Assembly (NCBI GenBank): GCA_000989565.1
Contig: LBOO01000006.1
Span: forward strand, 1 to 56,154
Origin: Candidatus Peregrinibacteria bacterium GW2011_GWA2_33_10
GTDB taxonomy: Bacteria > Patescibacteriota > Gracilibacteria > UBA1369 > GWC2-33-13
Reading direction: 5' to 3'
Length of the DNA stretch: 56,154 nucleotides
Shown in pieces: positions 9,082 through 12,494 of this stretch (its first letter is position 1; each line of letters starts with the position of its first letter). The notes beneath the pieces were generated by a model that worked only from the letters and a program-made list of their open reading frames with translations, was not told the DNA's origin and did no database searches. Both the position numbers and the translations under genes were made by a program.

Positions 9082-9549
9082 ATGGCAGTATGTTTAAATC
9101 GCGCGCAAATTATTGGCAATTTAACAAGAGATCCTGAAGTCAGACAAACACCTCAGGGTGTTTCTGTAGCGACTTTTGGAGTGGCAACCAATTATACTTG
9201 GAATGATAATAATGGTCAGAAGCAAGAAAAAGCTGAATTTCACAATGTCGTGGTTTGGCGAAAATTGGCTGAAATATGCGCTCAATATTTAAAAAAAGGC
9301 TCGAAAGTTTTTATTGAAGGCAAGATGCAAACAAGAGATTGGACCGGAGAAGATGGAGTTAAAAGGTATAAAACGGAAATTATCGCGGAGAATATGATCA
9401 TGCTTGATAGAAAAGGCGATATGGGTGATCACTCGGGGATGAATTATATTCCTAATGAAGACAGGAAAAGTCAAAATAAGATAAATAATAATGAGGAAAG
9501 TCCGGTGCCGGTTGAGGAAGAAGTGAAGTTGGAAGATTTGCCGTTTTAG
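9082..9549 (+). CDS. ssb: single-stranded DNA-binding protein
   Basis: The protein has 155 residues with the bacterial SSB OB-fold: LNRAQIIGNLTRDPEVRQTP at the N-terminus, VATFGVATN, EFHNVVVWRKLAEICAQYL, KGSKVFIEGKMQTRDW and a later IIAENMIML. A flexible linker follows, and the chain ends in the acidic EDLPF, a variant of the DDIPF tip that recruits replication and repair proteins. The length is normal for a homotetrameric SSB. It is a single-gene unit with its own promoter, and a hairpin follows the stop. Confidence 0.95.
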   Translation: MAVCLNRAQIIGNLTRDPEVRQTPQGVSVATFGVATNYTWNDNNGQKQEKAEFHNVVVWRKLAEICAQYLKKGSKVFIEGKMQTRDWTGEDGVKRYKTEIIAENMIMLDRKGDMGDHSGMNYIPNEDRKSQNKINNNEESPVPVEEEVKLEDLPF

Positions 9550-9689: not shown

Positions 9690-11213
9690 ATGCTTAATGA
9701 TTATGTTAAGATTTTTGATACTACTTTGCGGGACGGGGAGCAGTCGCCCGGATGCAGCATGAATATTGAAGAGAAAGTGAGACTGGCAAAACAGTTGGAG
9801 AAGTTGGGAGTGGATACTATTGAAGCGGGGTTTCCGATTGCTTCTCCTGATGATTTTTCCGCGGTTTCCGAGATTTCCGCAATTTTGAAAAATGCGGAAG
9901 TTTGCGGTTTGGCGAGAGCATTGGAGAAAGATATAAAAAAAGCTTGGGATGCTATTAAAAAAGCGAAAAAACCGAGAATACATACTTTTTTAGCGACTAG
10001 TGACATTCATTTGAAATATAAATTAAAAATGACTCGAAAAGAAGCTTTGAAACAAGCTGTTTTAATGGTTAAGTATGCAAAAAGTCTTTGTGATCGCGTG
10101 GATTTTTCTCCGGAAGATGCCGCAAGGTCAGATAAATTGTATTTGTATGAAGTTTTGTCCGCGGTGATTGAGGCCGGAGCGGATACTATCAATATTCCGG
10201 ATACGGTTGGTTATGCCATGCCAGAGGAATTCGGGGAATTGATCGCGGATATTATTAAAAATGTGCCGTTAATAAAGAAAAAAAATATTATTGTGTCTAC
10301 TCATTGTCATAATGATTTGGGTTTGGCTGTGGCAAATTCATTGGCCGGAGTGATTAATGGAGCAAGTCAAATCGAGTGTACGATTAATGGGATTGGGGAA
10401 AGGGCGGGGAATGCTTCTCTTGAAGAAGTTGTTATGGCAATAAGCACGAGAAAAGGATTTTTTAATTTAAAAACAGGAATCATTACTAAGGAAATTTATC
10501 CGACAAGTAAATTGTTAACGCAAATTACCGGAGTTAAAGTGCAGCCCAATAAAGCCATTGTAGGTGCGAATGCGTTTGCTCATGAGGCCGGGATTCATCA
10601 GGATGGAATTTTAAAACAAAGAGAAACTTATGAGATCATGAAGCCGGAAGATTTGGGTATAAATAAAACAAAGTTGATTTTGGGAAAGCATTCGGGGAGT
10701 CATGCTTTTAATGACAGGTTGAATGAGTTGGGATTTAATTTGAATAAAGAAGAATTGGAAGACGCATTTATAAAATTTAAAGTTTTGGCTGATAAAAAAA
10801 AGAATGTTTATGATGAAGATATTGCTTTGATCGCTTCGGAATCGGGGAAAGTTATAAAAGAAACATATATTTTGAAGACTTTAAATGTAGTTTGCGGCAC
10901 ACATGGATTGCCTACGGCGTCTATTATTTTGATTGATAAAGATGGGAAAGAACATGCTGAAGCTAAAATCGGAGATGGCCCCGTGGATGCCATTTATCAG
11001 GCAGTCAACAGCATTTTGGGTATTAAAAATAAACTTTTGGAATTTTTGATAAAAGAAGTTACGGAAGGCATTGACGCGCAAGCGGTTGTAACAGTTAAAT
11101 TGGAAATTGAAGATAAAGTATATTTTGGTCGAGGTTCAAGCACTGATATAGTTGTAGCCAGCGCGCACGCGTATTTGAACGCTTTGAATAAATATTTGGC
11201 TTTGAATGTATAA
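9690..11213 (+). CDS. leuA: 2-isopropylmalate synthase
   Basis: The protein has 507 residues, full length for LeuA with its regulatory domain. The TIM-barrel motifs are intact: FDTTLRDGEQSPGCSM at the N-terminus, IEAGFPIASPDD, STHCHNDLGLAVANS with the metal-binding HxH, GIGERAGNASLEEV and HEAGIHQDG. Residues ~385-507 form the C-terminal LeuA dimerisation/allosteric domain, ending GRGSSTDIVVASAHAYLNAL. The enzyme condenses acetyl-CoA with 2-oxoisovalerate at the first committed step to leucine. No leuB, leuC or leuD is in the window, which is odd for a CPR genome with poor amino-acid synthesis. A homocitrate or citramalate synthase role is possible, but the sequence reads as canonical LeuA. 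No Shine-Dalgarno is present. Confidence 0.92.
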   Translation: MLNDYVKIFDTTLRDGEQSPGCSMNIEEKVRLAKQLEKLGVDTIEAGFPIASPDDFSAVSEISAILKNAEVCGLARALEKDIKKAWDAIKKAKKPRIHTFLATSDIHLKYKLKMTRKEALKQAVLMVKYAKSLCDRVDFSPEDAARSDKLYLYEVLSAVIEAGADTINIPDTVGYAMPEEFGELIADIIKNVPLIKKKNIIVSTHCHNDLGLAVANSLAGVINGASQIECTINGIGERAGNASLEEVVMAISTRKGFFNLKTGIITKEIYPTSKLLTQITGVKVQPNKAIVGANAFAHEAGIHQDGILKQRETYEIMKPEDLGINKTKLILGKHSGSHAFNDRLNELGFNLNKEELEDAFIKFKVLADKKKNVYDEDIALIASESGKVIKETYILKTLNVVCGTHGLPTASIILIDKDGKEHAEAKIGDGPVDAIYQAVNSILGIKNKLLEFLIKEVTEGIDAQAVVTVKLEIEDKVYFGRGSSTDIVVASAHAYLNALNKYLALNV

Positions 11214-11230
11214 AATTTACAAATAAAATC

Positions 11231-11495
11231 AGGGTGTTAATCTGAATTGGGCACTTGCATAACCATACAAAATTTAGAAGGTTATCAGAGGTGAGATTAA
11301 CACCCTGCAGTAGTTACGACTCAAAGTTGATTATTCTAAGCTACGTATTTAAATTTGAGATTTTGAAGTAGAGAATATCAACTTATATATAGAGCCGGGC
11401 AAAAGGTTGCGACTTTTAAGTGGGCCTTAAGCCGGTCTCCCTACCGTTCTTTGGTAGAGGTATTTTTATAACCGGACACTACCATTCGGTTTTTT
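11231..11495 (+). ncRNA. candidate structured RNA 1 (unidentified)
   Basis: No protein gene lies between 11214 and 11921. This first half folds strongly. AGGGTGTTAATCT (11231-11243) pairs perfectly with 11294-11306 and encloses ATAACC/GGTTAT. AAGTTGAT plus ATTCT (11324-11337) pairs with 11372-11384, broken by one bulged base, and encloses CTAC/GTAG. AAAAG/CTTTT and CTACC/GGTAG hairpins follow. The block closes with AACCG/CGGTT and a T-run at 11470-11495 that looks like a terminator. I looked for tmRNA, RNase P, SRP, 6S and T-box signatures and found none. The strand is inferred from the terminator. Confidence 0.5.
11470..11495 (+). terminator. possible intrinsic terminator of RNA 1
   Basis: AACCG (11470-11474) pairs with CGGTT (11487-11491) and is followed at once by a run of T. 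The stem is short (5 bp), so this is moderate evidence. Confidence 0.45.
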
Positions 11496-11512
11496 ATATT
11501 TGTGTTTGTTTT

Positions 11513-11833
11513 ATTCCTCAAGTGTAAAAGAAGAGGAATTTAAGTTTTAAGCCCCGATAGAGGCTATAAGAAACGGTAAGTTGGTTGTTGTCGCGTCAAC
11601 CATCGAAAAGTAGGGAGAGAAAGACTTGAAATTACATTCTGAAGGCGCATCTGCAAGCCAATATTAAAATTTTTGATCCTCACGTAGCAACACTACGCTG
11701 CGGTCAAAAATTTTAATTTTAGCTCACATCTGCACCTTCAGAATGCAATTTCATGATCTATAAATTTTGAAAAAGCCTTATCTCTTTCTACTTTTTTACT
11801 CCTTCGCTAAAGCTACGGAGTATATTTTTTTTT
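11513..11833 (+). ncRNA. candidate structured RNA 2 with 125-nt hairpin (unidentified)
   Basis: The second half of the gap begins with ATTCCTC/GAGGAAT, then small AGCC/GGCT and TGGTTG/CAACCA hairpins. A long arm spans 11628-11752: GAAATT/AATTTC, CATTCTGAAGG/CCTTCAGAATG, an internal loop carrying CATCTGCA on both sides, a 16-bp A/T stem (11663-11678 with 11702-11717, one G-U pair) and a CGTAG/CTACG tip. AAAAGTAG (11606) and CTACTTTT (11788) close it from outside. A terminator follows at 11797. A long rod with an internal bubble and about 190 nt between the outer pairs recalls 6S RNA, but I see no diagnostic 6S sequence. It could also be a non-transcribed inverted repeat. Confidence 0.5.
11797..11833 (+). 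terminator. intrinsic terminator
   Basis: TACTCC (11797-11802) pairs with GGAGTA (11817-11822) around a GCT/AGC inner stem, followed by a run of nine T. It would end a transcript from the structured region before gmk. Confidence 0.65.
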
Positions 11834-11921
11834 AAAATATTTTGTGTTATATTGTTTCTGTTTTTTAAAGAGCAATTTTTAAACATCAGTATATAGTAAT
11901 ATAATTTAATATCTTTGTCAA

Positions 11922-12494
11922 ATGAATGAAAAACTCTTTTTAATCGTTGGTCCATCGGGAGTGGGGAAGGGAACAGTTATTGACCATTTGAAGCGGATTT
12001 ATCCGCAATTCGTTTTCCCTGTTTCTTATACTACTCGAGAAAAAAGGCCAAGGGAAAAAGATGGAGATGTGTATCATTTTATTTCTAAAGAGGAATTTAA
12101 AAAAAATATTGCAGAGGATAAATTCTTAGAATATGCGCGTGTTCATAGTGATAATTTTTATGGTACTTTAAAAGAGCCTATTTTGACTGCTTTGCAAAAA
12201 GGTAAAAATGTGGTTAGGGAAGTGGATATTCAGGGTTTTGAAAGTATTAAAAATAGAATTCCTAAAGAAAATTTGGTTTCTATATTTTTATATATTAATA
12301 ATTGGGAAGATTTAAAAGGCAGGATTATGCGTCGTCATCCTGAGTCTGAAGAGGAAATTGCCCAAAGAGAACAAAGTTTCGAACATGAAATGGCAAAAAG
12401 ATTTTTATGCGATTATCAGGTGGAAAGCAGGGAAGGGGATATCGAAGGGTGTGTAACGGAAGTGGAGGAGATTGTGAAAAGGTCTCTATTGTAA
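11922..12494 (+). CDS. gmk: guanylate kinase
   Basis: The protein has 190 residues. The P-loop is LIVGPSGVGKGTV, followed by the GMP-binding segment VSYTTREKRPREKDGDVYHF, the lid-flanking EYARVHSDNFYGT, a modified VVREVDIQGFESI (usually LDIDxQG) and a basic lid IMRRHPESEEEIAQRE. It phosphorylates GMP to GDP with ATP. A TATAAT hexamer at 11900-11905 is 16 nt before the ATG, so the leader is very short. The 3' end overlaps the convergent lipoprotein gene by 9 nt, with no terminator between them. Confidence 0.93.
   Translation: MNEKLFLIVGPSGVGKGTVIDHLKRIYPQFVFPVSYTTREKRPREKDGDVYHFISKEEFKKNIAEDKFLEYARVHSDNFYGTLKEPILTALQKGKNVVREVDIQGFESIKNRIPKENLVSIFLYINNWEDLKGRIMRRHPESEEEIAQREQSFEHEMAKRFLCDYQVESREGDIEGCVTEVEEIVKRSLL

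Follow-up and report, generated by a model that had tools for sequence, protein, structure and literature searches.

The gap between leuA and gmk in the window (56,154 nt of contig LBOO01000006.1 from the uncultured, ultra-small Candidatus Peregrinibacteria bacterium GW2011_GWA2_33_10) holds one RNA gene, on the minus strand from about 11886 down to 11221, and it is almost certain that the RNA gene at this locus is a conserved one. The RNA is a new family within the known broad category of large structured bacterial RNAs. As judged from sequence comparisons, the best overall explanation, which we consider highly probable, is an independent boxA-bearing gene whose product would act in trans as a structural RNA. 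The features of the locus are collected in Table 1.

The gene and its transcription signals

The gap between leuA (9690-11213) and gmk is 708 bp long (11214-11921). Inspection of the open reading frames in the gap found no plausible protein gene, in agreement with the preliminary description, and ARAGORN found neither a tRNA nor a tmRNA there. A coding-sequence reading of the RNA region was dropped, as the longest open stretch on the minus strand inside the RNA was 42 codons. The strong structure reported for the gap was likewise confirmed. Both strands folded far better than shuffled sequences, with z-scores of -13.8 for the minus and -7.0 for the plus strand, both owed in part to a 127-nt palindrome.

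The preliminary description had proposed two adjacent RNAs. This model and a plus-strand reading were rejected by the promoters, the boxA element, the asymmetry of G-U pairs and the relatives, as the paired segments belong to a single minus-strand RNA. The two plus-strand "terminator-like ends" proved to be the pseudoknot and the CCAAAGAACGGTAGGGAG motif in reverse reading, and the supposed second RNA is largely the palindrome, nested in a hairpin loop. In the alignment of the 3' domain, the non-Watson-Crick cells comprised 63 G-U and 18 A-C (p 5e-7), an excess of G-U that would be expected of a minus-strand RNA. The class-wide 3' domain model (R3, see below) matched 11218-11319 on this strand with an E-value of 2.8e-9. 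The 5' start of the RNA is predicted to lie about 7 nt past the -10 box and its 3' end at a U-rich tract. Across the class the RNA measures about 400-670 nt, and the window copy roughly 650.

The promoter in the window consists of a -35 box TTGACA (11916-11921), a 17-nt spacer and a -10 box TACTAT (11893-11898). Relatives carry a minus-strand TTGA--N17-TATAAT immediately beyond the end of the element that faces gmk. A boxA-like element was found no more than 75 nt from the -10 box in 34 of 49 homologues, where shuffling expects 0.8. The rrn leader of the window genome has GTTCTTTAACA, and rrn leaders of this genome and its relatives in the class have GTTCTTTAACA, GCTCTTTAACA or GTTCCTTGAAA, versions close or identical to the boxA elements of the RNA loci. 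Downstream of its promoter, the locus has a boxA that resembles the organism's own rrn boxA. At the 3' end, a GC-rich helix is followed by U's, with ATTTTATTT at 11221-11229 after the 3' domain. The RNA is thus probably transcribed by the rRNA-type machinery. The boxA would recruit Nus antitermination factors, so that the long untranslated transcript is completed as it is for rRNA. The layout resembles that of an rRNA leader with boxA, which serves Nus-factor antitermination (PMC4807359), in having a promoter followed shortly by an rrn-like boxA, but the transcript is not rRNA.

Table 1. Positions of the RNA gene, its parts and its neighbours in the window.
Feature	Position	Strand	Basis or remark
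RNA gene	11221-11886	-	homologues; promoter, boxA and terminator layout; R3 match
gmk, guanylate kinase, divergent neighbour	11922-12494	+	divergent to the RNA in 42/51 loci
ssb, convergent neighbour in relatives	9082-9549	+	ssb in flank in 21/51 loci
Sigma-70 promoter	11893-11921	-	TTGA--N17-TATAAT at the equivalent place in relatives
boxA-like element GCTCTTTAAAA	11863-11873	-	34/49 homologues
5' hairpin, upstream arm AAAAAGTAGAAAGAGATAAG	11777-11796	-	two A-C mismatches in the window genome
Near-palindrome, 127 nt	11627-11753		self-match, 79% self-complementary
Strand M CTCCCTACTTTTC	11605-11617	-	pairs with upstream arm, or with local downstream element and motif F
Hairpin GGTTG..CAACC after M	11583-11604	-	own 14.7 vs cross 11.1, 0/2000
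Hairpin TTCCTC..GAGGAA between A-rich linkers	11514-11538	-	fold; variable hairpin there in relatives
A-rich linker ACAAACACAAATATAAAAA	11491-11509	-	conserved as CAAAAACAAAAACAAA
H-type pseudoknot, ACCG/CGGT interlocked with GGTAG/CTACC	11453-11490	-	permutations
Motif F CCAAAGAACGGTAGGGAG, the best conserved stretch; contains GTAGGGAG, a partner of M	11437-11454	-	relatives; pairing tests
Hairpin domain closed by CCGG..CCGG	11391-11438	-	0/2000 across the family
Long hairpin AAGTTGAT..ATCAACTT	11324-11384	-	counterpart of the relatives' GATAGG hairpin region
3' domain: 14-bp helix CAGGGTGTTAATCT/AGATTAACACCCTG, invariant CACCTCTG, apical hairpin	11230-11307	-	covariation, R3
Invariant CACCTCTG	11286-11293	-	in 3' domain

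Covariation and fold

The predicted fold is conserved and multi-domain. It contains an H-type pseudoknot, linkers that are A-rich and single-stranded, and an internal loop formed by an invariant CACCUCUG. With the core aligned simply by MAFFT, RNAalifold returned only 9 pairs, so helices were tested domain by domain. Complementarity within a sequence (own) was compared with that between family members (cross) in 2000 permutations. None of the 2000 permutations equalled the real pairing for the terminal helix, inner helix or apical hairpin of the 3' domain, for the hairpins that follow strand M and precede ACCGCTCT, or for the GATAGG hairpin. The pseudoknot gave 0/2000 for stem 1 and 3/2000 for stem 2, and a GCTCTTT/AAAGAGC helix was weaker (27/2000). 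The hairpin domain closed by CCGG..CCGG is the counterpart of the relatives' GGTAACAGG..CCTGTTACC hairpin.

The terminal helix occurred in 27 distinct versions in 27 sequences, with an own score of 28.8 and a cross score of 14.7. This is the 13-bp P1 of the preliminary description; the helix is real, but it has 14 bp (11230-11243/11294-11307). Aligned over 26 sequences, the 3' domain was 89% paired, with two-sided changes in 20 of 24 pairs. The covariation check on related loci that had been proposed earlier, extended to 45 sequences, gave 92% paired and two-sided changes in 17 of 20 pairs. Covariation in the 45 sequences was 0.642, compared with 0.226 for shuffled and at most 0.172 for slid columns, controls that ignore relatedness. 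We therefore also counted changes on an independent gmk protein tree, which required at least 85 two-sided changes between Watson-Crick types in the 3' domain.

The UCACCUC part of the invariant CACCTCTG is similar to the tail of 16S rRNA that carries the anti-Shine-Dalgarno sequence, which may be chance. It bears on the idea of a trans-acting RNA that regulates or sequesters a protein or ribosomes, as do a Shine-Dalgarno-like GGUAGGGAG and the occurrence of short invariant motifs amid variable structure. In the consensus, however, UCACCUC and GGUAGGGAG each take part in pairing, at least in part, and a seven-letter resemblance is weak. We consider such a role unlikely.

Strand M has three complementary partners: the upstream arm of the 5' hairpin, GAAAAGTAG a short way downstream, and GTAGGGAG of motif F. 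These pairings surpassed cross-sequence controls (upstream arm and local partner, 0/2000 each; motif F, 13/2000). The difference for the M-F helix was small (own 20.2, cross 19.6) because its sequence is nearly invariant; where M has changed, F matches it lineage by lineage (for example CAGGGAGA/TCTCCCTG, GGCAGG/CCTGCC and GTAAGGA/TCCTTAC). As the pairings of M partly exclude one another, the RNA may refold. M would pair first within the 5' hairpin, while the RNA is being transcribed, and later switch to the local element and motif F, so that the RNA would have two alternative folds. For the window copy, the A-C mismatches of the 5' arm and a large insertion suggest that the switch may have been lost.

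The 127-nt palindrome is a guest repeat that sits within the 5' hairpin's loop and does not belong to the conserved RNA. Its central 50 nt (TTTTTGATCCTC..GCGGTCAAAAATTTT) are related to a REP- or MITE-like intergenic repeat of other genomes of the order, which occurs several times per genome (for example in G034). An inserted palindromic repeat could favour the view that the locus is a DNA-level element, such as a repeat, an origin or a recombination site, that mimics an RNA. This is extremely improbable, as the excess of G-U over A-C, the promoter, the boxA, the terminator and the covariation of the pseudoknot indicate a transcribed strand.

Distribution and neighbourhood

Homologues were sought in genomes among which the window genome is the sole member of its family. 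When 89 genomes of the order were searched at the DNA level, blocks 11437-11511 and 11600-11630 co-occurred in the loci of many genomes, and the extracted loci contained a single element adjoining ssb and gmk. A covariance model of the core (R1) matched 31 of the 89, one copy each. The structure in R1 was poorly defined, and R1 therefore did not match the copy in the window; this copy was recovered by two models of the 3' domain, R2, which also matched other orders of the class, and R3. The latter, built class-wide, matched 58 of 353 class genomes in single copy. When R3 was applied to a phylum sample of 380 genomes, the 10 that matched were all inside the class, and the gmk loci of five genomes outside it contained no similar element. 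An exact-pattern scan of named genomes returned Candidatus Peregrinibacteria and Gracilibacteria (Patescibacteria) records and a few unrelated ones, by appearance chance. On these comparisons we regard the RNA as a lineage-specific family of one class of Patescibacteria. A phage origin was also considered and rejected, phage records giving no match.

By eye, reduced forms adjoin gmk in about 12 of 22 loci without a model match, and consist of a promoter, a boxA-like element, a TCCCTAC hairpin, A-rich linkers and GTAGGGA; such forms extend the distribution to further families. Several loci (L156, L158, L177 and others) are strongly shortened and lack the 3' domain, with the TCCCTAC hairpin, the A-rich linkers and GTAGGGA retained. 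Such variants could define a minimal functional core. No recognisable copy was found beside gmk in families f3 and f5 and in parts of f31 and f33.

The constant neighbourhood of gmk raises the question of whether the RNA regulates gmk, or ssb, in cis as a leader or riboswitch. A gmk leader would lie upstream of gmk on the same strand; instead, the RNA gene is divergent to gmk at 42 of 51 loci and convergent with ssb at 21, and a promoter and a terminator of its own delimit it. For one family at least (f12, locus L163 of G065) the element appears, by eye, to have the opposite orientation to gmk, which independently points to a separate gene. A leader function is thus highly improbable, and the product would be a stable, trans-acting structural RNA.

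Two further observations concern single genomes. A leuA gene between ssb and the RNA gene was seen only in the window genome (1 of 51 loci), and in relatives that place is taken by ssb itself or by some other gene. In G084 (contig C18, loci L185 and L188), the 16S rRNA match is in two pieces about 600 bases apart, which suggests an insertion in the 16S rRNA gene.

Identity and possible role

A search of Rfam 15 (4227 families) gave no match to the window at gathering scores and only chance-level matches at E<=5, and eight relatives likewise gave only chance-level matches. The set presumably includes OLE, ROOL, GOLLD, raiA, 6S, SRP, RNase P and tmRNA. The earlier failure to match any standard RNA by eye thus stands. 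Of the two explanations offered then, that of a lineage-specific structured RNA has strong support: conservation, covariation, the promoter, the boxA and the 3' terminator all favour it. The other, that an essential RNA is present here in divergent form, was not borne out as far as we checked. The genome's matches to RNase P RNA (RF00010, contig C22, 184.6 bits) and tmRNA (RF00023, contig C20, 65.1 bits) lie elsewhere, which removes both as candidates. Both share with the RNA a single copy, large size and structure. Single copy, conservation, boxA-type transcription and a compact genome would also suit a highly divergent housekeeping RNA such as 6S, SRP, RNase P or tmRNA. Besides the two genes found elsewhere and the lack of an Rfam match in the window and eight relatives, a length of 400-670 nt with a pseudoknot and A-rich linkers is unlike what we take to be the form of 6S or bacterial SRP RNA, and we consider this quite improbable. 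A search of the open-access literature found no paper on a Peregrinibacteria noncoding RNA or on a named class of this kind; neither this absence nor that from Rfam is proof of novelty.

The covarying, multi-domain structure extends over several hundred nucleotides without translation, as in large ornate RNAs. OLE, ROOL and GOLLD are large ornate bacterial RNAs that form homo-oligomers (PMC12286853). Like them, the Peregrinibacteria RNA is hundreds of nucleotides long and untranslated, and is rich in hairpins, with pseudoknots and with unpaired segments that are conserved; their function is structural or unknown. It differs in showing no sequence or covariance-model similarity to them, in belonging to another phylum, in its link to gmk and in its rrn-type boxA. 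The raiA-motif RNA (ModT), described from Bacillota and other phyla, is similarly a non-coding RNA that is conserved, structured and widely distributed (PMC11706538), but the Peregrinibacteria RNA has no Rfam match.

A large conserved boxA RNA could have many roles. By analogy with OLE and ROOL, a scaffold or assembly role, as an RNP scaffold or in RNA assembly, is a tentative proposal that we hold at less than even chance. More tentative is the fuller idea of a previously unrecognised housekeeping RNA of a whole class of Patescibacteria, co-produced with rRNA through boxA and acting, by virtue of its conserved competing pairings, as a bistable scaffold for an RNP or RNA-only assembly, which we regard as possible but rather doubtful.

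As the genomes of ultra-small Patescibacteria are stripped, and the RNA has been kept class-wide with dozens of compensatory mutations, it is presumably important. The boxA would link its production to rRNA-type transcription and predicts a high, growth-linked abundance. The RNA offers a defined target in a lineage in which little RNA biology is known.
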